A stretch of 64,000 nucleotides of DNA from assembly GCA_022571845.1 (NCBI GenBank), contig JACZXB010000009.1, positions 1 through 64,000 on the forward strand, written 5' to 3'. Origin of the DNA: Candidatus Zixiibacteriota bacterium (GTDB taxonomy: Bacteria > Zixibacteria > MSB-5A5 > GN15 > FEB-12). The position numbers and the translations under genes were made by a program. Of this stretch, positions 7,841 to 34,855 are shown one piece after another. Positions within the stretch are counted from its first letter, which is position 1. Every line of letters begins with the position of its first letter. Under the pieces are notes generated by a model. It was not told the origin of the DNA. It made no database searches and was given only the letters and a program-made list of their open reading frames with translations.

Positions 7841-8369
7841 AGTTACTATATTACCGGTGGCGCAGGTGAGTAAGAAACATGCTTCGACCCTTTCGGCCCC
7901 CGTTCGCCAAGGCGAACTTGGGACTAACGCAGGCTCAGGACGGTGTTCGCTCAGCATGACACATTCTGAGGCACCCAGCCGTAAAGCATCGCTGTTTGAG
8001 CAGCAGGTAACGGCGGGGTTTCCGTCGCCGGCCGATGATTTTCTCAAAGCCGAAACCCAACTGGACTTAAACGAACATCTGGTCAAACATCCGGCCGCTA
8101 CATTCTTTGTGCGCGTGCGCGGAGATTCAATGACCGGCTGCGGTATTTACCCCGATGATATCCTGATTGTCGACCGCTCGCTCGAAGCTGTTCACCGCAA
8201 AGTTGTCATAGCAGTAGTCAACGGCGAGCTGACTGTTAAACGGCTGCACAAAAACGGCGGCAAAGTTATGCTCCTGCCCGAAAATGACAGATATAAGCCG
8301 ATTCTGATCGAAGATGAGATGCAGCTGGAAATCTGGGGAGTCGTCACCAGCGTTATCCATACGGTATAG
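7833..8369 (+). CDS. umuD: UmuD-like S24 self-cleaving peptidase subunit of a translesion polymerase
   Basis: A 178-residue UmuD homologue; family members are usually near 140. RecA-stimulated self-cleavage would occur at Ala61-Gly62 (VTAGFPSPADD). The serine-lysine dyad is Ser99 (GDSM) and Lys136 (GELTVKRL). Cleaved UmuD activates the UmuC polymerase encoded 21 bases downstream. The extra length lies before the cleavage site: residues 15-50 are low in family similarity and are encoded by a dispersed repeat (7886-7962) seen elsewhere in the window. Without it, the N-terminus would be normal (MDKVTILPVAQVS joined to KASLFEQQ). The dyad and cleavage site are intact, so function is probably kept. 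No LexA-type operator was recognised upstream. Confidence 0.88.
   Translation: MDKVTILPVAQVSKKHASTLSAPVRQGELGTNAGSGRCSLSMTHSEAPSRKASLFEQQVTAGFPSPADDFLKAETQLDLNEHLVKHPAATFFVRVRGDSMTGCGIYPDDILIVDRSLEAVHRKVVIAVVNGELTVKRLHKNGGKVMLLPENDRYKPILIEDEMQLEIWGVVTSVIHTV
7886..7962 (+). repeat. Dispersed repeat inserted within umuD
   Basis: The segment contains GCAGGCTCAGGACGGTGTTC followed by GCTCAGCATGAC. Related words occur at 49448-49579 (GCAGGCTCAGGACTGTG, GTCATCCTGAGCGGAC) and 50729-50855 (GCAGGCTCAGGACGGGG, GTGATGCTGAGCGGAC). It also holds a small palindrome, TTCGCCAAGGCGAA. The reading frame of umuD passes through it without a stop. Confidence 0.6.
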
Positions 8370-8390
8370 CTGCGATGTTGCCAGGCTAAA

Positions 8391-17687: not shown

Positions 17688-19334
17688 TTACTTGACAATT
17701 ATAGTGCCGTCCTGGAAATTAAACATAATGCGATTTTCCACACCCGATTTGATAACAACGTTTTTACTCATTTCCTCGCCAATTTCTTCCCAGCGCACCT
17801 TAATAGTATGCTGACCAGCCCGTATAGATATAGTTTTAGGGGTTTGCTTGTCCTTTAAGGGCTTACCATCAACATATATCTGAGCCAGATGCGGTAAGGA
17901 AGCTACCACCACGTCAACCATTGGTGCTGCCAGATCAGCGGCAGGGGAAATGATTTCCGTCCTCTCGGTTTTTGCTATAACCGTATCTTTGGCCGGTTTA
18001 ACAGGTGGTTTGTCAGAAGCGAAATTTATGGTGAATGCGACGGCTTGCGAAAATTCACTTAATCTGCCTTGAGTGTCTGTCGCCTGAACTCTCCAAAAAT
18101 ACTGTTCATTTGAGAGATTAGTAACTAAGCTATAGGTCGTGTCGGCAATGTTATTTATCTGGGTGGGCTGATTAAAAGAACTGCTGGATGCATACTCAAG
18201 CGCATATCCTCCGTCAGCTTCAGGTACAGACTCCCAGATGAAAGTTGGGTTCGGGGTTTGAAGTTGTTCACCGCTTAGAGGTGAATAAAGAGTCGGTGCC
18301 TTTAGTTCAGTTATTACAGGCTCTACAACGGCACAATTGATTCCCAACAGGGGACAGCTTGTAAAATAGAATATGACCGCAAGCGCCGCTATGGCTCCGG
18401 CTATACCGATTAACATTCCCTTTGACTTTGACGCTGGTTTTTTTTCATCAGAAGTTTCTATAATAACGGTCGCTTTTTCGCCGCTATCGCTTTTTTGAAT
18501 CACCATAGTTGGGTCGGATTTCATCGCGGCTAATATGGCATCTTCCATCTCTTTGGCCGATTGGTAGCGCTCTTCCGGGTTTTTTGCAAGTGACTTCAGG
18601 ATAACTCTGTCGAGCTCAGGGGAAATATTTGGAGTATGCTCGCTTGGCTTTAGCGGTGTCTTAGACATTTTATCATCGCGAATTTGGTAGGGATTATTTG
18701 CCTCAAAGGGAAGTCTCCCGCAGAGCATATAATAAAAAGTCACGCCGGTGGCATAGATATCAAACAGAGCGTTGTTGGCATCGGGCTGGGCGCTGAATTG
18801 CTCGGGCGCCATATAAGCAGGAGTGCCAAAGGCAGTGCCGACTGCAGTTAGCTGCGGGTCGGTCTGGGCTTTGGCAATTCCAAAATCAATAACTCTCACA
18901 AATTTTCCATCTTTGAGCATAACGTTGCTGGGTTTGATATCACGATGCGAGATGCCGTTTTTATGGGTATCTTCAAGTGTATCCAAGACCTTGGTGATAA
19001 TGCTGACAGATTCGGCAATATCGATCTTACCCCGCTCGTCGATAAGTTCTCCGATGGTGGGACCATTAATATACTGCATGGCGATATATGGCTGTCCCTC
19101 AAATTCGCGAGCTTCAAAAATTGTGATAATATTTGGATGTTCAAGCGCCGCTGTAGCTCTGGCTTCTCTGAAAAAACGCTCTTTTAAAGTTTTGTCTTTG
19201 GTATACTCCGGGGGCAGGAATTTTAAGGCCACCCGTCTGGGCAAGTCCTGGTCTTCGGCCAGATAGACCGAGCCCATTCCTCCGGAGCCAAGCTTACGAA
19301 TAATATTGTAATGGCTAAAAGTCTTATTTTCCAT
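17688..19334 (-). CDS. Membrane Ser/Thr protein kinase with extracytoplasmic Ig/PEGA-type region
   Basis: A 548-residue Hanks-type (PknB-like) kinase. Residues 8-270 hold the catalytic domain: glycine loop LGSGGMGSVY, ATP-binding Lys38, HRDIKPSN with catalytic Asp132, DFG Asp150, and GTPAYMAPE. All key residues are intact. A juxtamembrane segment (275-300) carries DPTMV and EKATV. One transmembrane helix spans about 307-326. Outside the membrane come a fibronectin-like sensor or binding region (about 345-440), a Pro/Ala/Thr linker, and a PEGA-like domain (about 465-548). It would phosphorylate Ser/Thr in the cytoplasm in response to an envelope signal. Upstream genes of the same array encode four FHA domains, the standard readers of phosphothreonine. 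No canonical ribosome-binding site is seen. Confidence 0.9.
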   Translation of the reverse strand: MENKTFSHYNIIRKLGSGGMGSVYLAEDQDLPRRVALKFLPPEYTKDKTLKERFFREARATAALEHPNIITIFEAREFEGQPYIAMQYINGPTIGELIDERGKIDIAESVSIITKVLDTLEDTHKNGISHRDIKPSNVMLKDGKFVRVIDFGIAKAQTDPQLTAVGTAFGTPAYMAPEQFSAQPDANNALFDIYATGVTFYYMLCGRLPFEANNPYQIRDDKMSKTPLKPSEHTPNISPELDRVILKSLAKNPEERYQSAKEMEDAILAAMKSDPTMVIQKSDSGEKATVIIETSDEKKPASKSKGMLIGIAGAIAALAVIFYFTSCPLLGINCAVVEPVITELKAPTLYSPLSGEQLQTPNPTFIWESVPEADGGYALEYASSSSFNQPTQINNIADTTYSLVTNLSNEQYFWRVQATDTQGRLSEFSQAVAFTINFASDKPPVKPAKDTVIAKTERTEIISPAADLAAPMVDVVVASLPHLAQIYVDGKPLKDKQTPKTISIRAGQHTIKVRWEEIGEEMSKNVVIKSGVENRIMFNFQDGTIIVK

Positions 19335-19383
19335 GAACCGTAATTGAATCTAATTATCGGGTTAGAATCAAGAAAATACTCGG

Positions 19384-21729
19384 TTATTGCTCGATAATTT
19401 CGATCTCAACCGGGCCTTTTACCTTGGCCATACAGGCCAAACGGCATTCGCCGGGTTTCAGTTCGCAAATATCTTCCAGTGCTTCTTCCTCTGCGTCGCC
19501 AATATCGCCTAGATTTTCCTGCCCTGAGAGGATTCTTATCGGGTCGCTGCCGCACATTCCGGCATGACATTCGGCGTTGATAGTGTAGCCGTTGGCTTCG
19601 GCTATTTCGCAGATTGTCTGGCCGGGCTGAATAGGAAATGTCCTGCCGTCATTTTTGAACGTAACCGATGGCGCTCCGTTGGCTACTGCTGCCGGAGCAG
19701 CCTCCGGTGCTTTTTCCGGGACGGCCGGCTCTGCTGCTTTTGGCTCAGGGACCAGAGGTGGCGGCGCTGATACCGGTATGAGAGTTATATGTCCGGTATT
19801 TAAAACAGCGTCCTGTTTCATGGTCATGCAGAAGAGCTGCTGGCCGACTCTAAAGAGCGTGCCGTGTTCTAATTTAGTGGAGTTTTTTACCCGGATATAA
19901 GTTCCGTTGACGCTGACTAAGTCTTTTAAGAGAAGTTTCCCTTCTTTTATGGCCAGAGTCAGATGGCGGCGCGACATAGTCTTGTCAGTTTCATCAAGCG
20001 TTATATCAGGAGTCTCCCGCCCTACAAGAATTGTTTTGTCTGGAATTGAATACTTACTTTTTTCTGCACCGCTTTGATCATAGTGAGTAAACGCGTAGGT
20101 TCCGTTTTGAACATGAAACATCAGATACTGGCGGCCAATTTTTACCAGATCGCCGTCCTTGATTTCATACTGCTTGCCTTCTATCGCTTTTAAGAAAACT
20201 CCGTTGGCGCTGCCGTCATCTCTGAGCGAATAGCCTTCGTCGCTGTGGGTAATTGAAGCATGCTGATCGGAGAGGAGAGTATCGTCGGGGAAAGTTATAT
20301 CAGTATCAATTCTACCGATTGTGGTCACTCCGTTTTCTTTTAAGGCGTATTCATTCTCTTCTATATTGCCGGGCAGAATGCGCACTAACCAGGCGTGACT
20401 TTCTTCGGTAACTCTCTCAGCCGAAACACTGGCCGCCGGCGGGCCTTGTGTTTCAACCGGCATAGTGGCCATTACGGCTGGTTCTTTTTTATCTGCCGTA
20501 GCTTCGGCAACATCGGCATCTTCTAAGACTACGTCTTCGTCAGGTTTTCCGGCCAGTCTGTTTTTGATAATCTTTGCCAGATAAACGCCGTCGCGCATGG
20601 CTGATTTTATATTGCCGCGATGTTTTATTTCTGTAAAACCGGCCGGGTCGGCTGTGAAATCGTCAGTTTCAAAATAAGCCTGGCTCAAAATATCTCCGAC
20701 CATATAGATATTTGGCTGCTGTGTTTCCAGGTATTTGGTCACGGTCATGCGCTTTTTGTTGTTGGGACCGCCGGTAAACATATAGATGCCCAGTGAGTTC
20801 AAAAAGCTTTCGGGGATATCTTCGCCGATACAGGCGATACAGCATTCTTTGCGGAATTCCACCTGCGTTGTTTCGCTGGGGCGGCCTGCCATTGAACGCC
20901 TGTCGGTGCGAATCGAAAGGTATTCATTTCTGTCTTCGGCCGTGACGATAGCCACCGCATCACTATTGGGATAGTATTTAATATTGCCATTATTCATGTG
21001 TGCTTCGAAAAAGACTTCGGCCAAGGCTTTGGAAACTCTTGGCATGGTAGTGCCGCGGTACGACCAGCAAACATCACACTTGTCGTCGGCTTCGAGCTTA
21101 GCGGCTGATATGGCCAGCACAGCTTCTGCAGCAGAAGTTCCACCGCCTAAAACACAGGCGGGCTGTCCTACATAAGAAGCGGCGTCGTCAAGCCGGTAGG
21201 CTATGCCATCTGTATTGCCGGGGATATCAAATCTGCGCGGGACGCCGCGACCAATGGCGATGATAATGTATCTGGCCTTGAGATTAAGCTCCGATTTGTT
21301 AGCGTGGTTCCAGGTCTTGACCTGCCAGACATCGTCTGCGCCTTTTTCTAGTCCGGTAAGCTCAACTCCTATCATGGCTGGCACGTTGCACTCGCTGTAT
21401 AAGTTTTTCCAGGCCGAGTGCATGTCATCTTTGTCTATCGGACCAAATATTAGTTTATTTATCAGCTCGCCGCCTTTAGGAAATTTCATTTTGTCGCCGC
21501 CGCCAAAGTCGGGCAGAATCAATTTGTCTTTGGGGTAATCTCTGATACGCTTCATGACGTCATCGAAGTCGATTACCAGTGCCGCCAGACCCAGTTCTTT
21601 GGCGTGAAAGGCAGCAGTTGTACCGCCGGGGCCGCCGCCTATTATCAGCAGGTCGAGTATTTCAGGGAGGTCTACTGTCTCTTTAAGCAGTAAGCGTCCG
21701 TCTTTGTCTATTTCAGAAGTCATATTCAT
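19384..21729 (-). CDS. Fusion: NAD(P)/FAD oxidoreductase - two FHA domains - [2Fe-2S] ferredoxin-like
   Basis: A 781-residue cytoplasmic fusion. Residues 22-395 resemble thioredoxin-reductase-like pyridine-nucleotide flavoproteins: FAD loop IIGGGPGG (29-36), NAD(P) loop LGGGTSAAE (194-202), YMVGD (342-346). The active-site CxxC of thioredoxin reductase is absent, so ferredoxin-reductase or YpdA-type chemistry is more likely. FHA 1 spans about 455-540 (TIGR, H490, SANG) and FHA 2 about 560-640 (VGRE, MSRRH, SVNGT). An Ala/Pro-rich linker precedes a ferredoxin-like domain (687-781) with Cys721, Cys726 and Cys766. The position of the usual third ligand holds Asp729; Cys755 and Cys762 are nearby. 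It could pass electrons from NAD(P)H to the array's redox proteins in a phosphothreonine-dependent way. It lies three bases after the FHA gene. Confidence 0.82.
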   Translation of the reverse strand: MNMTSEIDKDGRLLLKETVDLPEILDLLIIGGGPGGTTAAFHAKELGLAALVIDFDDVMKRIRDYPKDKLILPDFGGGDKMKFPKGGELINKLIFGPIDKDDMHSAWKNLYSECNVPAMIGVELTGLEKGADDVWQVKTWNHANKSELNLKARYIIIAIGRGVPRRFDIPGNTDGIAYRLDDAASYVGQPACVLGGGTSAAEAVLAISAAKLEADDKCDVCWSYRGTTMPRVSKALAEVFFEAHMNNGNIKYYPNSDAVAIVTAEDRNEYLSIRTDRRSMAGRPSETTQVEFRKECCIACIGEDIPESFLNSLGIYMFTGGPNNKKRMTVTKYLETQQPNIYMVGDILSQAYFETDDFTADPAGFTEIKHRGNIKSAMRDGVYLAKIIKNRLAGKPDEDVVLEDADVAEATADKKEPAVMATMPVETQGPPAASVSAERVTEESHAWLVRILPGNIEENEYALKENGVTTIGRIDTDITFPDDTLLSDQHASITHSDEGYSLRDDGSANGVFLKAIEGKQYEIKDGDLVKIGRQYLMFHVQNGTYAFTHYDQSGAEKSKYSIPDKTILVGRETPDITLDETDKTMSRRHLTLAIKEGKLLLKDLVSVNGTYIRVKNSTKLEHGTLFRVGQQLFCMTMKQDAVLNTGHITLIPVSAPPPLVPEPKAAEPAVPEKAPEAAPAAVANGAPSVTFKNDGRTFPIQPGQTICEIAEANGYTINAECHAGMCGSDPIRILSGQENLGDIGDAEEEALEDICELKPGECRLACMAKVKGPVEIEIIEQ

Positions 21730-21732
21730 TTT

Positions 21733-22740
21733 TTAGCTTTCGATTATTATTGCTTCAATATTTCCAAATTTTAATTTCGAACCTGCTGAGATTTCTTTTT
21801 CGGCGTCAATCTTGTTACCGTCTACAAAAGTATGGTTGGAGCTGCCCAAATCTTTGATGGTCATTCGTTCTGCACTTATGGTAATAGCGGCATGACGGCG
21901 CGATAGAGATTCGCTATTGATGACAACCGTGCACTCCATCGAACGGCCGATTGTGTTTTCACCTTCTTTAAGATTAAACTGCTTGCCGCTGTCTTTGACC
22001 TGAAGTTGATATGTTTTTTGCGGTGTAGCTTTGGATGGAGGAGCGCTCATGCCAACAGTAGCTTCGTCATCTACTTTTGAACCGTCGGCTGGCGGACCTC
22101 CAAAACTGGGAAGTCCGGCCGGAACTTTGTCGCCAGAATCAATCATCGTTTTTTCTTCAGACTTTTTATCATCAGTTTGCTTTTGCTGACTGTCTATTTT
22201 ACTGAGTGCCGATGGCAGCCCGCCCATGTCCTGCTCAAGCATAGTTTTTTCTTCTGCTTTGGTTTCGCTTGGCGGTTGTCCCAATCCGGCCGGAAGTTCG
22301 CCCATACTCACTTCTGCTATAGTTTTTTCTGCTGAGTCTGCCGGAAGTGCTTTAGGAGTTTCAGGAGCAGCTGGTTTTGCCGTAGGTGGCGCAGGTGGTA
22401 GTGGGGGAGGAGCTGTGCGTTGTACTGCGGGTGAAAATGTTTCGGCCGTCTGAAAAATGAAGTCAAATTTACCGGCAAAAGTAATCACGTTTAGCTTATC
22501 TAGTTTTTGTTTATCTGTTACGCGGATGCCGTCAAGCCTGGTGCCATTGCGACTATTTAAATCTTCAAGAATATACCTGCCCGACTGAGAATCCAGATAA
22601 ATTCGGGCATGAGTTCCGGAAACAACATCCGCCGGAAGCACTATTACGTTAGAGGAACTTTTGCCGATAGTGGCTTCGTCTAATATTTGAAATGAACTTC
22701 CGGCCAAAGGCCCTGTTTTGCAAAATAATCTGGCCGGCAT
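21733..22740 (-). CDS. Double-FHA signalling protein
   Basis: A 335-residue cytoplasmic protein. FHA 1 covers about 15-90 (TIGKSSSN, SGTHARI, DLNSRNGTRLDG) and FHA 2 about 245-333 (NTIGRSMECTV, LSRRHAAI, DLGSSNHTFVDG). Both retain the Arg/Lys, Ser/His and Asn positions that contact phosphothreonine, although the first has Lys in place of the usual Arg (TIGK). The linker (about 100-235) is Pro/Ala/Lys-rich and repeats an acidic-x-Thr motif: EKTIAEV, EKTMLEQ, EKTMIDS and DEATVGM. Such motifs resemble the phosphorylated threonines of GarA/OdhI-type proteins. It may be an adaptor joining the kinase encoded downstream to the redox proteins. Junctions to both neighbours are three bases. Confidence 0.85.
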   Translation of the reverse strand: MPARLFCKTGPLAGSSFQILDEATIGKSSSNVIVLPADVVSGTHARIYLDSQSGRYILEDLNSRNGTRLDGIRVTDKQKLDKLNVITFAGKFDFIFQTAETFSPAVQRTAPPPLPPAPPTAKPAAPETPKALPADSAEKTIAEVSMGELPAGLGQPPSETKAEEKTMLEQDMGGLPSALSKIDSQQKQTDDKKSEEKTMIDSGDKVPAGLPSFGGPPADGSKVDDEATVGMSAPPSKATPQKTYQLQVKDSGKQFNLKEGENTIGRSMECTVVINSESLSRRHAAITISAERMTIKDLGSSNHTFVDGNKIDAEKEISAGSKLKFGNIEAIIIES

Positions 22741-22743
22741 TTC

Positions 22744-24357
22744 TTACTCCACAAATAGACGCAGACTGCCGCGCTGCTGTTTATTGGGGTGGAAATAGTG
22801 ACAGGAAACACAATCGTTGGCTGCCTTCTTTTCAGTATGGCACTCACGACAGTTCTCTATGCCCGGTAGATTCTGAGTGGCGGAAATATCAATCGCTTTT
22901 ATCATCTGTGCATCGCTGCTCATCTCTTTGGTAATAGGAATTACATTATGGCAATCTAAGCATTGCCTTTCTAAAATATGAGCGCGGTGGTCAAACTCCG
23001 CTCTGATCATAGAAAGCTGATTGCCGTCATAACTGACCAAAGCAGCATTTTTTAGAATATGACAATCCTGACAGAGTTTTTTGCCGGCGCTGGTTAGTTT
23101 ATCAGCCAAGCCCAGCAGATCGTCTATCTGGGTCTGGGTCAAATTTTGGTTTAACGTAAAATCAGCCGTACTTCTTTTGTTTGTTCTTAGCATTCGTAAT
23201 TCATTCTTGTATCTCTTGCGTGCTATTTTTAGAAGTGAGTCTATTGATTTCAGGTTCTGTTGTATCTCTGGTTCGGGGCGGCCGCGAAGTTGCAAGATGT
23301 ACTCTTCGAGCGTGCTAATCATTTTTTCGTTCTTGCGCCGTATATCTAAATCCTGCGGATTATCTGTAGTATGAAGCAAGCCATCGAGGCCTAAATTAGG
23401 GTATAGAATTGTTCTTATAGTTTTCAAATTTTCCAAAATCCAGGGGTCTTTGTGGTAGACCGGGGATTTTTTAACTTTTACACCGCCCAGCGCCGTAAAC
23501 TCGTTAGGATTGGTATAAAAAGCCCAGCGCGTGCCGGGGTTCATTTTGCGCCTGATCATATTTAATGTTTCTACTCCGATCGCATTCCCTTGCTTGATAT
23601 TGAGCAGCGGAGTTTCGGAACCGGCGGTCAGATGGCAATCAGCACAGTGCTTGTCGAAATCAATCGCCTGAAAGCCTTTACCGTCATCACCCGGGTTGTG
23701 GCAGTAAAGACAGGTCTCTTCAAGATAAGAACGCTCTCCTTTCTGAACCAGAAATTTCGAAACAAAATCAGCATGGCGGGCATGAGTGAATCTGATAGCA
23801 GAGTCATCGGGGATAAGATCACGGGCGAATTGAAATTCCGGATGGCCTGAGTTAAACGAACCATAGTCGTGACAGTCCAGGCAATTGTTATCAGGAACTT
23901 CAGTAACTGCCGCTAGCCGGCCGTTATGTTCCTGATGACAGGAATAGCAGTTTTCCTGGTCGCTGCCATGTTTAGCAGAGGCAATCTCAATACGGGAAAA
24001 CTTATCGGAGCGATATAGATAGTGGGAGTCATAGGAATATACTCCGATATCGTCGCCGAATTTCTCGTGGCAAGTTTGACATTTGGCATCTGAAACTTCG
24101 TTGGTCGGTTCATGGCATTTGAGGCAGTCTTGCTCAAAATTGGCATGGTTCGAAGTCACCGGACCCGGCGATGAAAAACTCGCCGAAAGAAAAATATGGT
24201 CTACTGCAAAAAAAACAATCAGTAAAAGCGAAACCAACGTGCCGATTACTACCATTCCCCGTCTTCGGGCAGGAATGATATAATTCTTGCTTACAGAAAG
24301 TTCCGCTTCGGAAAAGCTGCCTTTTTTACGTCTATATCTGTCGTTTCCTTTAGCCAT
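22744..24357 (-). CDS. Membrane-anchored decahaem c-type cytochrome
   Basis: A 537-residue cytochrome anchored by one N-terminal transmembrane helix (about 35-54), with the rest in the periplasm. Ten CxxCH sites are present: CLKCH, CQTCH, CYSCH, CLDCH, CLYCH, CADCH, CQDCH, CLDCH, CRECH and CVSCH. Six lie in the first half and four near the C-terminus. They are separated by a haem-free helical segment of about 170 residues (about 260-430) that looks like a spacer or partner-binding region. Paired sites suggest doubled-CxxCH modules. It probably takes electrons from the cytochrome b encoded nine bases upstream, or from quinol, into the periplasm. The tail ends close to the FHA gene start. Confidence 0.88.
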   Translation of the reverse strand: MAKGNDRYRRKKGSFSEAELSVSKNYIIPARRRGMVVIGTLVSLLLIVFFAVDHIFLSASFSSPGPVTSNHANFEQDCLKCHEPTNEVSDAKCQTCHEKFGDDIGVYSYDSHYLYRSDKFSRIEIASAKHGSDQENCYSCHQEHNGRLAAVTEVPDNNCLDCHDYGSFNSGHPEFQFARDLIPDDSAIRFTHARHADFVSKFLVQKGERSYLEETCLYCHNPGDDGKGFQAIDFDKHCADCHLTAGSETPLLNIKQGNAIGVETLNMIRRKMNPGTRWAFYTNPNEFTALGGVKVKKSPVYHKDPWILENLKTIRTILYPNLGLDGLLHTTDNPQDLDIRRKNEKMISTLEEYILQLRGRPEPEIQQNLKSIDSLLKIARKRYKNELRMLRTNKRSTADFTLNQNLTQTQIDDLLGLADKLTSAGKKLCQDCHILKNAALVSYDGNQLSMIRAEFDHRAHILERQCLDCHNVIPITKEMSSDAQMIKAIDISATQNLPGIENCRECHTEKKAANDCVSCHYFHPNKQQRGSLRLFVE

Positions 24358-24366
24358 TTCTGCTTT

Positions 24367-25206
24367 CTAATAGTAGTAAACTATAAACAGGTGAATAACC
24401 AGAAATACCAGCAATACGATTGAGACCGGCAGGTGCGTGACCAGCCAGACCCGCAGCGGTTTCTGCAGAGTATAGTGGGCGTCGCACTCAAGCTTGGTCT
24501 TAAACAGCATTTCAAGTTTATCAAGTTTCTTTTCTTCTTCAGGTGAAAGAAACTGTTTCAAATAATCCATCTGTCTTATTCTTGCCTGGACTCCGCCAGT
24601 GATATCAACAAAGAACGACGGACGCACCACCGGCTTTTCCATATCGGCTGCCATTGTCCGGTTGTAGAAATCCTGAATTGGTTCGGAGGCAGAGGCGGCT
24701 TCAGCTCTTGCTGTTTCGGCAAGTTCTGCTACCAGTTTCGGAATTCTATCATAGTGGACCTCAAGCGTTAAGGCCGAAGACATAAGTCTGGGAATCCATT
24801 TCTGAAGGACAACTCCCACAAGTCCGCTTAATACAACCCAGATAGTCAGACCCCACAGCCACCAGTTAAACGCCCCTTGCGGCAACTGAAAATTTATATG
24901 CATGAACATAAATAGAAGAGACAAAACGCCACCGTATATATGAAACTGAAGCCAGCTGTAAGAGCTGCCCAATTTCATTTTTGAACTTGTCTTCATAGTA
25001 CGGCGGCGAAAACCATAGGCGGCTACACCTACAAACAAAACAGCAGCGATAGTCCCGTAGGTCAGACCCCAGAAATTACCGGGGCGAACTTCATCGATAA
25101 AACGATTCGCAGCAAAGGCGATTACAGAAATTATGGCAATATAAATAAACGCTCTCATCCAGGCTGGTGAGCTGACAAAATCATATATTGACCAGGTTCT
25201 GTTCAT
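24367..25206 (-). CDS. Di-haem cytochrome b-like membrane protein
   Basis: A 279-residue integral membrane protein with about five transmembrane segments (16-33, 47-65, 87-106, 113-134 and 253-276). Four histidines form two pairs, His89/His103 and His258/His272. Each pair is separated by 13 residues on one helix, the classic spacing for two b haems stacked across the membrane. A soluble helical segment (about 150-245) lies between helices 4 and 5. It is probably a quinone-linked cytochrome b that moves electrons between the cytoplasmic face and the periplasmic multihaem proteins. The gene overlaps the CNB/ferredoxin gene by four bases (ATGA type), which suggests tight translational coupling. 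It is shorter than respiratory cytochrome b of bc1 complexes. Confidence 0.82.
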   Translation of the reverse strand: MNRTWSIYDFVSSPAWMRAFIYIAIISVIAFAANRFIDEVRPGNFWGLTYGTIAAVLFVGVAAYGFRRRTMKTSSKMKLGSSYSWLQFHIYGGVLSLLFMFMHINFQLPQGAFNWWLWGLTIWVVLSGLVGVVLQKWIPRLMSSALTLEVHYDRIPKLVAELAETARAEAASASEPIQDFYNRTMAADMEKPVVRPSFFVDITGGVQARIRQMDYLKQFLSPEEEKKLDKLEMLFKTKLECDAHYTLQKPLRVWLVTHLPVSIVLLVFLVIHLFIVYYY

Positions 25207-26885: not shown

Positions 26886-26888
26886 TAG

Positions 26889-27788
26889 TCACTTACCAAT
26901 CTTTTTATAAAGAAGTTCAAGGCGGGCCTTTAAGACAATCATAATCTGCTGGAAAGTTGCCGAATCAGGCAGAACTGGAAACGGCTCAAGGCTGATTGGC
27001 CTTGCTGCCTTAAGCGGAAAAAACGGGTCAACCGACGGAGGTGGCGGGGGAGGAGGCGGAGCGTAGGCTCTTTGCGCTGGTCTGTCACCGCCAGCACTAG
27101 TGGCTACTGCGATAGTCGGAATGGGACCGCGTTTTTCCATAGCTTTCTTAAACGAGTCATTTTTTGTGTCAGCAGAGCTGGCTGCTCTGTCCCAGTGTTT
27201 GGAGACTGAACGAATACCTTTGGCGTAACCAAAGGTCGCTCCGCTGGGATGCCCGGCGCGCAAAAGTTTTTCATCTGTCACATAATGGCAGCGCACACAG
27301 GTCTCGGCGCGCGCCGCGAGATTGGCCAGCTCCACCATGCCCAATTTTAGACCGGCGACGTAGCCCGGTCTGTCCTTACCCGCTTTGGGGTCCCCCTCGG
27401 TATGCTTTTCTTTGTAGGCGCTGCCGGGGCCGTGACAGCTTTCGCAACTGACACCTTCGTCAACTTCGCCGGCTTCATTGCCGGAAACAACCGTACCATG
27501 ACATTTCATGCAACTTGAGCTGCCTTTCATCATGTTGTCGGCACCGACACCTGCTAAATCTGCAATCTTGCTGTACAAGGCATAGCTGTCGTAGATAGAC
27601 TGGACTGTTACTTTGTGGTCGTCATCTTTCCACCAGTCATTTTCGCCGCTGTGACAATTGGACTGACCAAGTCCGCAGCCGCCGGGTCCGAGAGTCTTAT
27701 GCTGGGCAAAAGAGTTGACAGAAAAAAATGACAGAGAATAGATAGAAACGATTAGAATTTTCTGAAGCAAAACGATTCTATTTTTCAT
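26889..27788 (-). CDS. Periplasmic multihaem cytochrome (c554-like) with CX6CH site
   Basis: A 299-residue exported cytochrome with signal peptide residues 1-28 (ending VNSFAQ). Three canonical haem sites occur (CMKCH, CESCH and CVRCH). A fourth, N-terminal site reads CGLGQSNCH, with six residues between the cysteines. The spacing of the sites and the GHPSGATFGY segment resemble tetrahaem cytochrome c554. A run of eight prolines (PPPPPPPP) follows at about 244-251, then a helical tail. The protein is probably a periplasmic shuttle between the anchored decahaem protein and the large outer cytochrome. The gene is 62 bases downstream of the large cytochrome gene and three bases before the CNB/ferredoxin gene. 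Confidence 0.85.
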   Translation of the reverse strand: MKNRIVLLQKILIVSIYSLSFFSVNSFAQHKTLGPGGCGLGQSNCHSGENDWWKDDDHKVTVQSIYDSYALYSKIADLAGVGADNMMKGSSSCMKCHGTVVSGNEAGEVDEGVSCESCHGPGSAYKEKHTEGDPKAGKDRPGYVAGLKLGMVELANLAARAETCVRCHYVTDEKLLRAGHPSGATFGYAKGIRSVSKHWDRAASSADTKNDSFKKAMEKRGPIPTIAVATSAGGDRPAQRAYAPPPPPPPPSVDPFFPLKAARPISLEPFPVLPDSATFQQIMIVLKARLELLYKKIGK

Positions 27789-27850
27789 ACTAACTACAAA
27801 GTTTGTTTAGCGGGCGAATACTAGTGACAGCCAAGAGTCCTGAGTTTTAG

Positions 27851-30800
27851 TTATTCCTCATATTCCACATCTCCGTCTTCGTCCACAGTCCAGAGTTTGT
27901 CATTTTTTAAAAACATTTTATGCTGCTCTTGCAGATTAAAGGGGCGAGAGCCTAAACGCCCAAAAATTGAAATCTGATTACCACTTTCATCAACTGCTCT
28001 GTCTCTGTCCAGACCTTTTGACAGCGCAATCGCTTTACCGTGAGTGTGCCTGGTAGCAATCATTTTCGGACTCGGTTTTGGGCTAAAGCCCAGATATCCC
28101 GGAGTTCTGTTCGGCGAAGTTAATTGTAAAACGTGCAGACCATTATGACCATCTGCTACATACGCAAATATACTGGCATTGGTCGAGGCAACTTTTACGG
28201 CCTGAGCATCAGAAATATGACCATGGTCTGTAAATATCTGGTCAATTTTTAAATTTTCTGGGTTCTCAGCATCAATGATAACCAGTCCCTCAGGTCCGGC
28301 AGCAACATAGGCGTAAGTTCTGGCAAGATATATATCATTGGCTTCTTTAAGCTTGATAGTGTTGCCTTTTATAAATCTTGGCTTTTCAGGGAAGGTAATA
28401 TCCATAACTTTTACGCCCTCAGCGTCACAAACAAAAGCATACCTGAACTGCACAGCTACCGCTTTTGGTTTTTTGAAATCTCTGACGATACTGACTACTT
28501 TTGGAATCTGCGGATTACTGACACTTACTATGACCAGTCCTGTGTCGCAGGAGATGTAAATATAATTTCCGGCTATAGTTAAGTTCACGGCACCGGCCAG
28601 AACATTGTCCGGATTAAAGGTTACTTCTCGGTCAAGGAAGTTATTTTCCGGATTGCCATCGACCAAATTCATAACATCGACTAAAATCAAGCCCTCCACT
28701 GAATCAGTAATGTAAGCATAAGTGTAAAGCGGATGAATCGGCCATTGTTCCATGTTTTCAGGACGATAGAATCTTTTAGTGTCGATAGGCATGTTTGTCG
28801 GCAGCGCTACTGCTGTGGCGTTGGTAGTCTTGACGTGCGTGTCTTGTCCCCAGAATGAAACCGGCTGCGAAATTATACGCTCCGAAAAACCTTTGTTGTC
28901 GATATTGGCAATATCGTAAACTCTAAATCCATCGCTGCCGCTGGCAGTGAACAAATATTCACCGCGCATCTGCAGGGACCTGATATTTTTGCCGGGGTGA
29001 TGGTAGGAAACCTCAAGTTCACGATCTTTATTGATATGGTTTTTGTAATAATCAGAGTAGGCCAGACTGTGCAAATAACTGCCGATGACAGCCTGGGGTT
29101 CGTCTGTTTCGGTAACGGCCACAGCTTCGATTCCATGAGAGCCGGTGCCGACATAAATATATTTGCCCATAAAGTTAACCAGGTTGGTGCCGTGCAAAAG
29201 AATCTGGGCCATCCAGGCATTGTTGTCGTTCTTTTCGGAGACGTGGCAGTCGATACAAGTCTTGGTCTCAAATGTTCGTACGGTATGAGGTGCGTGAGGG
29301 TTAAAAGCCTGACTGCTATAGCCCGGTGCAGAAATCGGCGGCTGCTGAATATAAATCTGTTCACGGTTGGCATTGCGCGAGCTCAAGATAAGTGCACTCG
29401 ATGACCTGGCCGGCGAAACTTTACTGCCCTTGGTGTGAGCGCTGATACAAAGCATGTAGCCATCATCTCTTATCACCTGCGGGTTGTAAGAAGTCCAGCT
29501 GCGGGACTCTCCACCTTCATAATGCGCCATATCTTTTTTCCAGTTAGCCTGCTGCGGCAGGTGGCAGCCGAAACAGTTGGTAACCCAGGAGCTGTGGCAG
29601 GCGTAACATTCCATCTTGTCCGGACTATGGGGCAGAGCCGAAGCTTCGCTGGAGCCGTCCCACTCTTTGCCGGAAATCGTCATCAGTTTGGCCTTACGGG
29701 CCTTGGCGTTAAAGTTTTCAGATTCCGGATCAATTATATCTACAAGCTGCGGTATTACCCACTCCAGCGAATCATGAAGCATCGAGCGCTGAATAATTTT
29801 CGGGCCCCGTCTCGAAAATCTTTTCTTCTTAGTCGGCGTATATAAATCATCTAAGACAAGCTGGCGCTCAGTTGCCGCCAGTCCTGAAGTTCTCAAAGTT
29901 GCCTGCTCGGTAATAGTGCCGTGACAGTCGATGCAGGCTATTTCAAGAGCGTTATGGAACTCCCCGTAAAGTTTGCCGTCGCCGTGATTGTCCTGCTTAA
30001 AATGACAGTCAATGCAGTGCATTCCTTTTTCGGCGTGAATGTCGTTTAAGTGAACCGCTTTCTGGACATGGCGGCAGTCGTCATCGCAGTATGGTTCGTG
30101 GTCGGTATCAATGCGAACAACACCATGAAATTTATGCGGCGAATCCCAGGGAATAATTTCCCCTTTAGAGTCCAGTAGGTTGCCTTTTCTATCTTTACTG
30201 AAGACCGCCCGAAACAGCCAGCCGTGGCCGTGGTAATCTGCAAACTGTGAGTTTTCAAATTCATCATTGCGCTCGGCAATTTTGGCCAGAAATTCGAGGT
30301 CACCCCATTTTCCGCGAAGGACTGCTTCTTCGGGGTTAGCAACCAAGAGTGCGTGCGCTTCTTTGTCCGATGGGTATTTCTGTTTATCGGGGTACATCGA
30401 CTCGCCGTCAGTTTCATAATCCCACATCTGAAAACCAAGATAGGTATTACTGAAGGCATTAGGCTGATGCATATGGCAGCTCATGCACTGACTGGTCGGA
30501 ATAGCAGTTGTAAATTCATGCTTTATGGGGTGACCGGATTCGTCTTTAGGGATAGTAGTATCAGCGCTCTGGCTCAGTCCCATATTTCCAAATTTTGAAT
30601 AAGGTCCGGAATGAATAGGCGAGCGGTCATTGGCATAAATCACATGGCAGGAAGTACAACCGCTGGAGCGATAATCACCGGGGTGGTCGTTGGTTCCCAT
30701 GAAAGAAAGATGCGGGTCATTCAAGCGAGTTTTAAGCAAATTGAGCACCGGCGAACTAATCCGAAGCTGGGTGCCCAGGCCACGGTCGGACGATTTCATA

Positions 30801-31531
30801 TCCGGCCGGCCCGGTTCATCGAGCGGATTAGGAATGCCTATGTCTGAAGGATTTATGCGTGAAATTCTGCCGCCGCTTTCGAAAGTTCTGAAAATATTAC
30901 CCGGTTGTGTTATTTCCCAGCGGGGAAGAGGCAGCACGGTAGGCAGAACACCGCGTGCCAGTTGGTCTTCAGTTGGCGCCGGAACTGTCAGAATCTGCTG
31001 AGCAATTCCATCACGCGAGTAACTCTCTCCGAAAATGTAATGCTTGGTAGAAATTATTCCGTTCTGATAAGCGGCGCCGCCCCACAAAAGGGTCGAAGTT
31101 GTCATCATACTCTTTTTTACATTTAAGACGTCGCTTGCGTGACACTGTCCGCAGGCTTCATCGGCCACCCGCAAATCTCCGGGATTTACAAACTTGATAA
31201 ATTCAGGAAATTCTTTGTTAAGCAAGGTATAAGAGCGAACCGGGTTGGCTGAGGATTTCCATTTTGCAGGAAACCTCGGCTGAACATGGGCTTCTTTTTT
31301 GGTGGTGGCTACGGCGCTGCCGCCGTGGCAGTCTATACAACCGAGCTTGACAGCGGTAGATTTGTGCATCTTTTCGATACCGCCGTGGCAGGTAATACAG
31401 CCTTCGCTTTTTAAATCAGCCTCTTCTTGCGATTGCCTGACAAGGTCGCTCTGCGCCAGGACACCCGCAGCCAGAAGAACCAAAATGGCCAATGTCACTT
31501 TGTACGATATTTTCTTATAGTGATTAGCCAT
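27851..31531 (-). CDS. Large exported decahaem cytochrome c fused to an LVIVD-type beta-propeller
   Basis: A 1226-residue exported protein. The ATG at 31531 is preferred to the one at 31537 because AAGG lies eight bases ahead. Signal peptide 1-26, ending GVLAQS. Ten CxxCH sites lie in the first 760 residues: CITCH, CIDCH, CGQCH, CTSCH, CMSCH, CIDCH, CIDCH, CYACH, CFGCH and CIDCH. A CISAH sequence near residue 705 may be a lost site. Residues 790-1190 form about six or seven blade repeats of the LVIVD type (VEGLILVDV, TGLVIVSVSNP, EGVKVMDI, PEGLVIIDAENP). The protein is probably at the outer membrane or surface, next to the barrel encoded four bases upstream. The propeller may dock a partner or substrate. 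No catalytic site is recognised. Confidence 0.88.
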   Translation of the reverse strand: MANHYKKISYKVTLAILVLLAAGVLAQSDLVRQSQEEADLKSEGCITCHGGIEKMHKSTAVKLGCIDCHGGSAVATTKKEAHVQPRFPAKWKSSANPVRSYTLLNKEFPEFIKFVNPGDLRVADEACGQCHASDVLNVKKSMMTTSTLLWGGAAYQNGIISTKHYIFGESYSRDGIAQQILTVPAPTEDQLARGVLPTVLPLPRWEITQPGNIFRTFESGGRISRINPSDIGIPNPLDEPGRPDMKSSDRGLGTQLRISSPVLNLLKTRLNDPHLSFMGTNDHPGDYRSSGCTSCHVIYANDRSPIHSGPYSKFGNMGLSQSADTTIPKDESGHPIKHEFTTAIPTSQCMSCHMHQPNAFSNTYLGFQMWDYETDGESMYPDKQKYPSDKEAHALLVANPEEAVLRGKWGDLEFLAKIAERNDEFENSQFADYHGHGWLFRAVFSKDRKGNLLDSKGEIIPWDSPHKFHGVVRIDTDHEPYCDDDCRHVQKAVHLNDIHAEKGMHCIDCHFKQDNHGDGKLYGEFHNALEIACIDCHGTITEQATLRTSGLAATERQLVLDDLYTPTKKKRFSRRGPKIIQRSMLHDSLEWVIPQLVDIIDPESENFNAKARKAKLMTISGKEWDGSSEASALPHSPDKMECYACHSSWVTNCFGCHLPQQANWKKDMAHYEGGESRSWTSYNPQVIRDDGYMLCISAHTKGSKVSPARSSSALILSSRNANREQIYIQQPPISAPGYSSQAFNPHAPHTVRTFETKTCIDCHVSEKNDNNAWMAQILLHGTNLVNFMGKYIYVGTGSHGIEAVAVTETDEPQAVIGSYLHSLAYSDYYKNHINKDRELEVSYHHPGKNIRSLQMRGEYLFTASGSDGFRVYDIANIDNKGFSERIISQPVSFWGQDTHVKTTNATAVALPTNMPIDTKRFYRPENMEQWPIHPLYTYAYITDSVEGLILVDVMNLVDGNPENNFLDREVTFNPDNVLAGAVNLTIAGNYIYISCDTGLVIVSVSNPQIPKVVSIVRDFKKPKAVAVQFRYAFVCDAEGVKVMDITFPEKPRFIKGNTIKLKEANDIYLARTYAYVAAGPEGLVIIDAENPENLKIDQIFTDHGHISDAQAVKVASTNASIFAYVADGHNGLHVLQLTSPNRTPGYLGFSPKPSPKMIATRHTHGKAIALSKGLDRDRAVDESGNQISIFGRLGSRPFNLQEQHKMFLKNDKLWTVDEDGDVEYEE

Positions 31532-31541
31532 GCCCATATCC

Positions 31542-33260
31542 TTAATAGGTAAAGACCATATTCATAAACCCGGAAAGTTGAGTGGCGTCTGTCTCATAAA
31601 TATCTTTGAAGCCTTCAAACGGAGAAAGCGCCGCCAAACCAAATGTAAAGATAGAGTTATTATTTAAGAACGGTCTGAAAATTAAACCAAGGCTATAGTC
31701 CAGACCAATATTATTATCCAGCGCCCCTTGATTCAGGAAATGCTCAAGTGTTCTGGTAGTCGAAAAGCGCAGATAGTTAATATTGGCAATCAGTTTTAGT
31801 TTTGGCGTCAGCTCAGCGTCATAGCCGACATTTAACAGTAACAGTCCGGGATTTACAAAATTTGCCTGACCTTCAAGTTTATTCGTGCGCAAGGATGGCA
31901 AAAGGCTCAGCTTATGAACCAAGGCCACGCCCCCAAGTCCGATTCCCTGTTGCTGCCAGTAGCTAAACGGTCCACCTGCAAAAAACGGAAGATCCAAAAT
32001 TGCATCAAACCCTTTACCCTGGTCATCAAGCGGATTGTCGTCGCCGGAAGCATAAAAAGCAGAAACTTTGTAACGCATCCAGTCAACATCAATAGACAGT
32101 TCCAGAGCCGCCATCTGGGCATTTATATTAATCTCTTTAGCGGCAATCTGATTAAAATCATCTGTGCCCGTTACGTGATACAAAGCGTGAGAAATATTCA
32201 GCCTACCAAAATGTCCCTCGCCGGCCCAGCCAAAATACGAAGCATTTATTTCATGCTCGCGCACCCGCCCAATAGGCGCCGGCCGCACCAAACGGCCGTT
32301 TACATCGTAGTGGGTAGCGGCTTGGTCGCGGTTATGATGAAAACTAAGCTCAGCCGTATAGCCCAAAAACCCAAGAAAATCCTGCTTGTAGAGATTAAAA
32401 ATCAGTACGTCTTGGTCGCGGTCTTCAAAAATTGTATTCAGTTCAGAGTTGGTTTCTTTTTCCAAAAGAGTCAGATAGATAAAATTGTACTGAAACTTGT
32501 TATTGCTGTAGTTACCAAAAAGACGGTAACCGAGATTGTAGTCATTAAAGATAAACGAGCGGAAATCACTGCTGAACCTTTGAATGCCGCCCTTAAATGA
32601 AATAAAATCATAGCGATCGCTCAGATTAAAAAGATGCTTTTCAAATGACAATTCCTGAAAGGCTATATGTGCGTCTGTGCGGTTGTCACCTTTGCGGACA
32701 TTAATATTGACGCCGTTGTTCTCCTTCAAATTCAAATAATTGAGATTGAAAACCGGCGTGATTTTTATCTCCCAGTCACGGGGACGATAAGCAGTCTGGC
32801 CGTGGTAAAGTTCGAAGGTCAGCTTGATATTTTGATTAAAGAAAAACTTTTCACCATCGGCAAAGAAATCCATACTCAGCGGATTAAAAGTACTGACACC
32901 GCTGGGCGTAGGCACATGAGCGAATTCTGTAAAAGATTCTGTTGTCGCTGTAAAAATAAAGAAAGTATTCTGTCCCCAGATCGGGTAATCGCCTTTTAGA
33001 ATATTCTGATTATAGGGATCAATAAATCTGCCTTTTACATTCAGTTCATAGGGGGGCGGTACAATCGAACGCCAGCGATCGGGAATCGGGATAAAATGCG
33101 GAAGCCGCGGTACTGTATCAGCCGAAGTAGTATCAGTTATTGCCTGTGCTGTGTCGGCGTTTTCTTGTGCTAATATTAATGAGGGGAGCAGCAGCAGTAT
33201 TACTGCTATTGCTATAAGCAAAGTCGGTGAGAATGATTGACTCAGGTTATTGGTCATCAT
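31542..33260 (-). CDS. Outer-membrane beta-barrel protein, candidate cytochrome conduit
   Basis: A 572-residue exported protein. Signal peptide residues 1-31, ending LILAQE; then a Thr/Pro-rich stretch. From residue 70 onward there is strong alternation typical of a large barrel (FELYHGQTAY, LGYRLFGNYSNN, VRPAPIGRVREHEI), ending in the aromatic MVFTY. No TonB plug is seen, so it is probably a porin-type barrel. The gene overlaps the upstream lipoprotein gene in an ATGATGA junction and precedes the large decahaem gene by ten bases. In porin-cytochrome conduits such as MtrAB or OmaB/OmbB a barrel wraps a multihaem protein; this gene order fits the idea, but sequence homology to those barrels is not claimed. 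Confidence 0.75.
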   Translation of the reverse strand: MMTNNLSQSFSPTLLIAIAVILLLLPSLILAQENADTAQAITDTTSADTVPRLPHFIPIPDRWRSIVPPPYELNVKGRFIDPYNQNILKGDYPIWGQNTFFIFTATTESFTEFAHVPTPSGVSTFNPLSMDFFADGEKFFFNQNIKLTFELYHGQTAYRPRDWEIKITPVFNLNYLNLKENNGVNINVRKGDNRTDAHIAFQELSFEKHLFNLSDRYDFISFKGGIQRFSSDFRSFIFNDYNLGYRLFGNYSNNKFQYNFIYLTLLEKETNSELNTIFEDRDQDVLIFNLYKQDFLGFLGYTAELSFHHNRDQAATHYDVNGRLVRPAPIGRVREHEINASYFGWAGEGHFGRLNISHALYHVTGTDDFNQIAAKEININAQMAALELSIDVDWMRYKVSAFYASGDDNPLDDQGKGFDAILDLPFFAGGPFSYWQQQGIGLGGVALVHKLSLLPSLRTNKLEGQANFVNPGLLLLNVGYDAELTPKLKLIANINYLRFSTTRTLEHFLNQGALDNNIGLDYSLGLIFRPFLNNNSIFTFGLAALSPFEGFKDIYETDATQLSGFMNMVFTY

Positions 33261-34855
33261 TCAATCTCCGGGCGGCGCGGGAATTTAACATAGGGCAGCC
33301 TGATGCCGTCATAGAAAAACTGGTCACAGCGCACGCTGTCATGCGGGCGGAATCCTTCAGTGCCGGCATAGGATATAATGTCATCCTGGTCGACGCCATC
33401 GCCGCTGACACCTATACCGCCGACAATCGCACCGTTCTTATAAAGTGCAACACCACCGGGGAATATGGTAATGCCGTTTCCAAAGGGATTCAAATCCATA
33501 TTCTGCTGCAGACCAAACTCAGGACCTTCATATAACGGGCCGGGGGCAACTTCGCGGCCTTGAGTCTCTTGATCAATACCAGGCGGATAAAAATCCTGAC
33601 TCAAAAAGCCGAGCGCCCGGCAGGTAACAGATAATGGCCGAAAAGTCGGCAGTCCTAATATGCTTCTTATGTAAAGCCCCAGCGGGTGATTGGTGCGGCT
33701 ATAAGCGACAACCGTTCTGGCTTTTTGTGCCGAGACATCAAAGCTGAAAAGTGTCGCATCGGGCGTGCGCCAGATTCCTAATATTGTACCATCAACATCG
33801 CAGACGGTAACAAAAACTCTGGCGGCACTGCCCAGCGGTCTTCTGATAGCCGCTCTGGTTTTATTGGCCTGAACAACTGCTTGGTCTATTATCTGCTTTA
33901 CTTCCTGAGCGGTTAATATCGAGCCGTCTTTTATTCTGAAATCAAAAGCCGGGTCAAGGTTGACTTCACCTTCAATCGCAAATTTTTGGGTCGGAGTTGG
34001 TCGAATCGGAAATTGTGCGTCGACAATACCGCGCGAAGCCAAATCGGCAAAGGTGAGATTGAAAATCAGCTGTGGATCTTCAGCATTGGCGTAAAGAAAC
34101 AAAATGCCGTCAATAAAAATTCTGTCGCCTCGTAATTCGTCGGCAACGCGATAGCCGCCTACTGCGGCCAAGGCTATCTGCTCATCCTGGCTGGTGCCCT
34201 GGCAGGTTACAAAGCTAAGATTGAGCTCTCCTCCGCTTATGCCTATACCTCCGGCCAGGCGGCCGTCTTTGAAAATTGGAATTCCGCCGGGCACACCGGT
34301 TAAACCGGGAGCGCCAATTGCCGGTTTGGCTGCAGCTATATCGCCGTTAGGCATGATATCGCCATCCCCAATACTCGAATATGGCACGCCATACAAAGGA
34401 CCACCCGGGGCGTTTTCCACTCCGGGAGGAAAGTGCGGGCGTGTGATATAACAGGCAGTCAGAGTCGAAAAAGCATGCTGATTACTGCTCAAATAGGCAG
34501 CAGTTCTCGCTTTGGCGATCGCGCCAAAGGTAGTATCAAATACGTTGGCATCAGTGGTACCGGTCATCCGAAAGACGCCAAGTACATTGGCTTCGCGGTC
34601 GACAACTGCCACGGTCACAACTGCCCCGATCTGCTCAGCTGCATCGATTGCCTGCGCTAAAAGTGTCTGAACATCCGACACGCTCAAATCAGGAGTGCCG
34701 GTAGGTGAATTTATGATTCTGGCCTGCTCGGAGTCACAGCCAGATATTAATATCAGCGCAATGGCTGCCACAATCAGAAGCAATAGAGAAATTATTGAAA
34801 AAACAGTCGATTTAGACTGATGAGAGACATTTAGAATAGCGGTTTCTTGTTCCAT
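33257..34855 (-). CDS. Lipoprotein with two GlcG/HbpS-like haem-binding domains
   Basis: A 532-residue lipoprotein. The start at 34855 gives the signal helix SIISLLLLIVAAIALILIS with lipobox ISGC; a TTG at 35008 would add 51 residues ahead of it, and it overlaps a TTGACA box. Two copies of a GlcG/HbpS-like domain follow: about 55-240 (QAIDAAEQIGAVVTVAVVDR, PGGIPIFKDG, GGIGISGG) and about 330-510 (ALYKNGAIVGGIGVSGDG). Family members bind haem or cobalamin-type ligands and act in sensing or haem handling. It is the first gene of the array and overlaps the barrel gene. Role in haem loading or sensing at the envelope is inferred from domains and context. Confidence 0.8.
   Translation of the reverse strand: MEQETAILNVSHQSKSTVFSIISLLLLIVAAIALILISGCDSEQARIINSPTGTPDLSVSDVQTLLAQAIDAAEQIGAVVTVAVVDREANVLGVFRMTGTTDANVFDTTFGAIAKARTAAYLSSNQHAFSTLTACYITRPHFPPGVENAPGGPLYGVPYSSIGDGDIMPNGDIAAAKPAIGAPGLTGVPGGIPIFKDGRLAGGIGISGGELNLSFVTCQGTSQDEQIALAAVGGYRVADELRGDRIFIDGILFLYANAEDPQLIFNLTFADLASRGIVDAQFPIRPTPTQKFAIEGEVNLDPAFDFRIKDGSILTAQEVKQIIDQAVVQANKTRAAIRRPLGSAARVFVTVCDVDGTILGIWRTPDATLFSFDVSAQKARTVVAYSRTNHPLGLYIRSILGLPTFRPLSVTCRALGFLSQDFYPPGIDQETQGREVAPGPLYEGPEFGLQQNMDLNPFGNGITIFPGGVALYKNGAIVGGIGVSGDGVDQDDIISYAGTEGFRPHDSVRCDQFFYDGIRLPYVKFPRRPEIE

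Follow-up and report, generated by a model that had tools for sequence, protein, structure and literature searches.

Extracellular electron conduits are, to our knowledge, generally treated as always-on wires that are controlled by gene expression. We describe here a ten-gene cluster in the first 64,000 nucleotides of contig JACZXB010000009.1 of a Candidatus Zixiibacteriota bacterium (assembly GCA_022571845.1; this whole stretch is hereafter referred to as the window), which encodes a putative electron wire with a candidate gate, recurring in many groups, built into the wire's own proteins. An outer-membrane electron conduit comprises a periplasmic multihaem cytochrome, an outer-membrane beta protein and an outer-membrane lipoprotein with a redox cofactor (PMC6148476), and the nearest described cluster to that of the window is the Geobacter ext cluster (PMC5877670, PMC6148476). 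The window cluster resembles extHIJKL-MNOPQS in that a non-haem lipoprotein, a porin (here a candidate), a periplasmic multihaem ExtM or its relative, an iron-sulfur (FeS) protein and a cytochrome b are encoded together. The periplasmic multihaem element of the conduit definition is represented by an ExtM-like protein (10 CXXCH) and a c554-like protein (three CXXCH).

An earlier note on this DNA had described ten genes on one strand. All ten open reading frames were confirmed on the minus strand, at 17688-34855 of the window, with domains as described there:

33257..34855, minus strand: GlcG/HbpS-like lipoprotein, 532 amino acids, two HbpS domains, lipobox LISGC (PF03928, 5e-31)
31542..33260, minus strand: putative outer-membrane beta-barrel, 572 amino acids, signal peptide (amphipathic strand excess)
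27851..31537, minus strand: ExtM-like periplasmic decahaem cytochrome with a C-terminal LVIVD beta-propeller, 1228 amino acids, 10 CXXCH, signal peptide (NCBIfam ExtM, LVIVD)
26889..27788, minus strand: c554-like cytochrome, 299 amino acids, 3 CXXCH, signal peptide (PF13435, 6e-9)
25203..26885, minus strand: CNB2-[4Fe-4S]4 ferredoxin, cytoplasmic, 560 amino acids (PF00027 twice, Fer4)
24367..25206, minus strand: di-haem cytochrome b candidate, 279 amino acids (alignments, invariant His)
22744..24357, minus strand: inner-membrane-anchored decahaem cytochrome, 537 amino acids, one transmembrane (TM) helix (34-52), 10 CXXCH (Cytochrome_C7 and others)
21733..22740, minus strand: FHA2 scaffold, 335 amino acids (PF00498 twice)
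19384..21729, minus strand: fusion of an FAD/NAD(P)H reductase (TrxR/YpdA-like), two FHA domains and a [2Fe-2S] domain, 781 amino acids (Pfam: Pyr_redox, FHA twice, Fer2)
17688..19334, minus strand: transmembrane Ser/Thr kinase, 548 amino acids, PEGA domain, TM 306-324 (PF00069, 4e-50)

On the basis of the observed composition, synteny, fusions, co-occurrence and motif conservation, we propose, with the case for and against about evenly balanced, that this cluster encodes a post-translationally controlled electron wire from NAD(P)H to the outer membrane, with a putative outward direction and a putative switch. A wire with phosphate-reading (FHA) and nucleotide-sensor-type (CNB) domains, which may serve to switch it on and off, appears to be present in at least nine bacterial groups. 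NAD(P)H, the probable donor, would reduce the FAD domain of the flavoprotein and then its [2Fe-2S] domain. From there, electrons would travel via the CNB-ferredoxin (four [4Fe-4S] clusters) and the membrane cytochrome (two haems b) to the anchored decahaem protein, and on through the c554-like carrier to the ExtM-like decahaem-propeller. Together with the HbpS-like lipoprotein and the barrel, this last protein would form the outer-membrane end. Electron flow would thus be outward, along a chain with 23 CXXCH haem sites in total.

In the flavoprotein, two FHA domains lie between the TrxR/YpdA-like FAD domain and the C-terminal [2Fe-2S] domain, and its PDB relatives are Bdr/TrxR-like FNR and GarA/OdhI. 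Its [2Fe-2S] domain contains the motif C-x4-C-G-S-D, in which an Asp occupies the third canonical Cys position, as in E. coli SdhB. This flavin-[2Fe-2S] unit points to NAD(P)H for the supply of electrons; nothing supported quinol, which the earlier note had named as a second possible donor. The CNB-ferredoxin, which has no signal peptide, combines a pair of CNB domains with ferredoxin motifs for four clusters. It contains no DNA-binding domain, so that the "transcription-coupled" gate of the same note found no support. Alignments of the cytochrome b candidate revealed five invariant histidines (H89, H103, H244, H258 and H272), including two pairs spaced H-x13-H, and its AlphaFold2 model had a predicted local distance difference test (pLDDT) score of 75. 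The window protein had no Pfam match and no relative in a PDB sequence search, and a plasmid search with it gave no match; weak matches of its remote homologs were to cytochrome b561 (below the cut-off) and DUF4405.

At the outer end, the 572-amino acid protein is plausibly an outer-membrane barrel: it has a signal peptide and 25 amphipathic strands, versus 15 ± 3 in shuffled sequences (z=3.6, 10-mers), and its homologs adjoin the ExtM-like gene in related clusters. Searches of Pfam, NCBIfam and PDB sequences identified no relative, and the outer barrel of the earlier note is a candidate. The ExtM-like protein scored 92 bits with the NCBIfam ExtM model (cut-off 800), indicating a distant relative. 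The GlcG/HbpS-like lipoprotein has no CXXCH, and the same GlcG-type gene precedes the barrel and ExtM genes in Chlorobi, KSB1, Binatota-type genomes, Acidobacteriota and Sphingobium. In other groups, the c554-like protein is replaced by a double-c554 octahaem protein. An N-terminal C-x6-CH (CGLGQSNCH), which is not a standard haem motif, is kept in the c554-like protein (26889-27788) and at locus L015.

The flavoprotein fusion was found at 20 related loci, the record titles of which name Zixiibacteriota, KSB1, Ignavibacteria, Chlorobi, Rhodothermia, Nitrospirota, Gemmatimonadetes, Sulfidibacter (Acidobacteriota), Myxococcota, Deltaproteobacteria and Binatia. The CNB-ferredoxin was present in all searchable genomes carrying this fusion (19/19). 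The CNB-ferredoxin, cytochrome b, decahaem, FHA2 and flavoprotein genes were contiguous in this order at 15 loci from eight groups, and the same core genes occurred in a rearranged order in Myxococcota. This gene arrangement is far beyond chance, with a core that is syntenic across many groups. The outer end varied: the GlcG-barrel-ExtM version was found in Zixibacteria, Chlorobi, KSB1, Binatia-type genomes, some Acidobacteriota and Sphingobium, and the double-c554 octahaem version, often with a pentahaem protein upstream, in Nitrospirota, Gemmatimonadetes, Sulfidibacter and others. The inner-membrane and control core is thus conserved, and the outer ends joined to it are exchangeable. The pentahaem protein upstream of the octahaem variant has about 560-650 amino acids (L068, L083, L085, L086, L064 and L067), and a possible porin with no Pfam match accompanies the octahaem variant (L027:1710-3128, L029:1326-2837).

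Gene fusions provide the best argument for counting the signalling domains as part of the electron path. The CNB-ferredoxin is fused to cytochrome b in L023 and L095 (a kind of fusion that occurs in Nitrospirota), contains an FHA domain between its CNB and ferredoxin parts in L058-L062, and is preceded by the FAD domain in L084, L093, L094 and L104 (Sphingobium). FHA-TM-decahaem proteins were found in L084 and, with a second TM helix and FHA domain at the far end, in L093 and L094; L095 encodes an FHA-TM-multihaem-TM-FeS-FAD protein. The FHA and FAD domains of the two-TM fusions lie at predicted cytoplasmic ends. Curated Pfam models support the fusions that were checked with them (L095, L093, L058, L023 and L104), with the exception of the weak FHA domain of L104 and of the cytochrome b part, which Pfam does not model well; for the remaining fusions, the evidence comes from custom-built profiles. 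The assignment of FHA and CNB domains to the electron-transfer system by the earlier note is thus borne out, as these domains are syntenic in many groups and fused to redox subunits in several ways. L095 (4369-10442) is a two-gene version, consisting of CNB-ferredoxin-cytochrome b and the FHA-TM-multihaem-TM-FeS-FAD protein. L104 (AP027340.1, 175708-190221), on a Sphingobium megaplasmid, encodes FAD-CNB-ferredoxin, cytochrome b, an FHA-like-decahaem protein and a CpdA-like phosphoesterase, together with a divergent GlcG-barrel-ExtM set, and all its cluster genes but that for CpdA are annotated as hypothetical. The ferredoxin was also present in nine other Sphingobium plasmid records, among the matches listed.

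Co-occurrence was consistent with this linkage. In 247 Acidobacteriota genomes, the ExtM-like protein was found in 25, the CNB-ferredoxin in 25 and both in 21 (P 1e-22, without regard to phylogeny); the flavoprotein fusion occurred in seven genomes, each of them within the CNB-ferredoxin set (7/7). Of 132 Zixibacteria genomes, four contained the fusion, and these same four contained the ferredoxin and ExtM; a fifth had the end of a fusion gene at a contig edge; none of the three was found in a near-complete genome of the same genus (G033). This patchy distribution suggests gain or loss as a unit. Mirror-tree analysis of the five core families gave significant correlations of the CNB-ferredoxin with the decahaem protein and with cytochrome b.

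The FHA domains of the window cluster retain the Arg of the phosphothreonine-binding residues in three of four cases and the S-x-x-H in all four, with one GK for GR and one NH for NG. The linker of the FHA2 protein contains four tandem threonine motifs (EKTI, EKTM, EKTM and EATV), and one to four copies, roughly [DE]-x-[KRE]-T-[VMIR]-...-LPxxL, are present in most lineages. Across 18 linkers, the pattern [DE].?[KRE]T[VMIRFL] occurred 25 times, versus 1.8 in shuffled sequences (12 versus 1.3 outside Zixibacteria). The z-scores overstate this enrichment, because the pattern was chosen after the linkers had been viewed and copies within a single protein do not count independently; no threonine site is present in four of the linkers. 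A related motif, [KRQ]T[MVIL], lies directly ahead of a conserved DRWS at the N-terminus of the CNB-ferredoxin (KTM in the window, with T12). These motifs resemble the FHA-docking threonines of GarA/OdhI, and the linker threonines and T12 are candidate phosphorylation sites for FHA binding. They would be phosphorylated by the linked kinase, where present, and dephosphorylated by a PP2C-type phosphatase, and the FHA domains of the FHA2 protein and flavoprotein would dock on the phosphothreonines and thereby either hold the reductase against the membrane part or set it free.

The CNB domains give little support to a cyclic-nucleotide reading of the CNB-type sensor named in the earlier note. In the window, CNB1 has the sequence GEIGAL-x-GWPQ, with Gln where the Arg binding the phosphate of cyclic nucleotide monophosphates (cNMPs) is expected (GE...PR.A), and WPQ was invariant in this type (alignment of 11 sequences, phosphate-binding cassette scan). 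The canonical arginine is missing from both CNB1 and CNB2 of this type, which makes a cyclic-nucleotide sensor unlikely here; the pair would instead be a structural switch or one with another, unknown ligand. The arginine is kept in L092, L095, L096 and Sphingobium L104, thus including the FHA-less variants L092 and L096 and the Sphingobium FAD-CNB-ferredoxin, and these CNB domains may read a cyclic nucleotide. In Sphingobium sp. TomTYG73, the FHA domain is weak and a CpdA-like phosphoesterase gene follows; tblastn detected no such gene near other clusters, which limits the cAMP link to Sphingobium. These few cases suggest a shift between cyclic-nucleotide and phosphothreonine control. A broader proposal, that about ten groups share a class of conduit with an inner-membrane wire switched by interchangeable modules (FHA/kinase/PP2C or cyclic-nucleotide-competent CNB), is one that we put forward only tentatively.

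The window kinase has the catalytic motifs HRDIKPSN and DFG and a PF00069 score of 171 bits, as in Hanks-type kinases. PP2C genes were found near the cluster in seven of 32 genomes, versus 0.6 expected, and PP2C is the better-linked enzyme. In the eight kinase-poor genomes, a kinase lay near the cluster in three, versus 0.46 expected. The cluster of one Chlorobi genome (G136) contains four of the five FHA domains, one of the three kinases and one of the two PP2C of the genome.

Several results weigh against the proposed controlled wire. Kinase genes lay near the cluster in 10 of 32 genomes, versus 5.5 expected, a difference for which chance could account overall; the kinase was therefore rejected as a fixed part of the system as a general rule, and its membership of a joint system, claimed in the earlier note, was clearly reflected only in kinase-poor genomes. 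No PP2C gene was found near the window cluster. The AlphaFold2 model of the barrel candidate had a pLDDT of 30, and a fold search against the PDB with the medium-confidence cytochrome b model returned nothing significant. Against the redox core, the mirror-tree correlation was weak for the flavoprotein and FHA2 gave no clear signal, owing to poorly aligning linkers and a number of partial sequences. Metagenome bins are the source of many related loci. Finally, the refuting condition named in the earlier note, homologous operons without the FHA, CNB or kinase genes, was examined: CNB is kept in every core locus, but FHA is gone from L091, L092 and L096, so that the wire can do without FHA control. 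The joint-system reading nevertheless survives for the most part. In L091 (8565-10949) and L092 (8649-10904), a NuoG-like [2Fe-2S]/FeS part is found at the N-terminus of the CNB-ferredoxin, and electrons apparently enter by another route.

Such FHA-less variants, the near-chance adjacency of kinases in kinase-rich genomes and the CNB1 and CNB2 domains without the canonical arginine would also suit a plain respiratory or detoxifying reductase cluster, in which FHA and CNB merely serve structural docking, with no phospho- or ligand-dependent switching. We consider this unlikely, given that the phosphothreonine-binding residues of FHA are kept, the linker threonine motif is strongly enriched and PP2C adjacency is above chance. 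It is less likely still that the conduit is a sensor, in which outside acceptors set the redox state of the haems and FeS clusters and this state is relayed via CNB/FHA to kinase signalling. FHA and CNB are typical signal readers, the PEGA part of the window kinase is extracytoplasmic, and the next genes encode exported CsgG-like and TPR proteins; nevertheless, a complete electron path (23 CXXCH) and an outer-membrane module exceed the needs of a sensor, FHA is fused to redox proteins rather than output domains, and PP2C is linked more than the kinase. Multihaem conduits can run both ways, but inward electron uptake (e.g. from minerals or Fe(II)) for the reduction of NAD(P) is the least probable alternative by our reckoning, as a current to low-potential FeS/NAD(P) would, on thermodynamic reasoning and without proton coupling, run uphill from most outside donors and against the membrane potential. 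The observation in its favour is a 10-haem FHA protein of Gallionellaceae (PMC10734462), possibly a relative of the FHA-decahaem proteins, the likeness being by description.

The spacing between the ten genes, from GlcG downwards, is -4, +4, +62, +3, -4, +9, +3, +3 and +49. Seven of the nine junctions are within the -4 to +10 given for most of them in the earlier note, the wider ones being those ahead of the c554-like (+62) and kinase (+49) genes. The GlcG/HbpS-like gene starts with an ATG at 34855, with AGAGGT upstream, and faces a divergent phosphoglycerate mutase gene (35167, plus strand). The run of ten holds, yet it does not end at the kinase: same-strand genes continue down to 13138, with junctions of +79, +3, -8 and 0, and encode the following two proteins and two more secreted proteins:

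16508..17608, minus strand: CsgG-like exported protein (PF03783, 2e-9)
15155..16504, minus strand: TPR lipoprotein, in the same unit as the CsgG-like gene (TPR Pfam matches)

The kinase, CsgG-like, TPR order is shared with Chlorobi and the kinase, CsgG-like order with Ignavibacteria. Homologs of the CsgG-like gene follow the kinase in L021 and L022 and lie near it in L067 (Nitrospirota), and a homolog of the TPR lipoprotein gene is present in the same order in L022. Promoter and terminator scans of the cluster gave numbers close to those for shuffled sequences, and no transcript boundary can therefore be claimed. Farther along the window, a 1059-amino acid protein (9936-13115) combines Ig-like domains with a C-terminal sorting domain of the type IX style, and the gene for a UmuC-like Y-family polymerase (7833-9752; IMS, DUF4113) has a small gene, possibly UmuD, just ahead of it.

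With no visible proton coupling, an ungated wire would probably drain NAD(P)H and the membrane potential. The recurrence of the cluster in Sulfidibacter corallicola M133, a described isolate, and in Sphingobium sp. TomTYG73 renders the question testable, and the cluster offers functions to test for many proteins annotated just as "hypothetical" or "FHA domain".

The window cluster shares with the Mtr, Omc, Pcc and PCC3 conduits multihaem cytochromes and a putative outer-membrane barrel, but scores remained below the NCBIfam cut-offs for DmsE/MtrA (TIGR03508, 30.6 versus 192.2 bits) and OmcA/MtrC (TIGR03507, 17.9 versus 209.3 bits), and, unlike in those conduits, its inner-membrane part consists of an FeS protein, a cytochrome b and an anchored decahaem protein with signalling domains. 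Among named proteins, Geobacter ExtM is the closest relative of the decahaem-propeller; CNB, FHA, flavoprotein, kinase and propeller are nevertheless all absent from the ext genes as described. ExtP is the bc-type partner of a Rieske protein, ExtO, whereas no Rieske domain was found here, and the ExtO model matched just a stretch of the ExtM-like protein. A 10-haem "forkhead-associated protein" has been reported in 27 of 87 genomes of iron-oxidising Gallionellaceae (PMC10734462, Table 1); with FHA and ten CXXCH it resembles, by description only, the FHA-decahaem proteins of L084, L093 and L094, and it is listed by cluster number without a gene cluster or function. Full-text searches of the open-licence literature yielded no description of FHA or a kinase with multihaem extracellular electron transfer. 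GarA/OdhI, which are among the nearest PDB FHA domains, likewise combine FHA with a nearby threonine motif, but the window cluster has four FHA domains, tandem motifs and a reductase fusion, and its relatives fuse FHA to cytochromes. In NOX2, a cytoplasmic NADPH-flavin unit feeds a two-haem membrane wire, and phospho-dependent assembly sets activity. The window system resembles it in functional outline and in the H-x13-H of two helices (a likeness of His spacing alone; the window cytochrome b had no Ferric_reduct Pfam match and no PDB fold match), but differs in that its electrons would exit via multihaem periplasmic proteins rather than to oxygen. Were the broader, tentative proposal of interchangeable control modules to hold, phospho-dependent assembly of an entry complex would be seen for the first time in an electron conduit.

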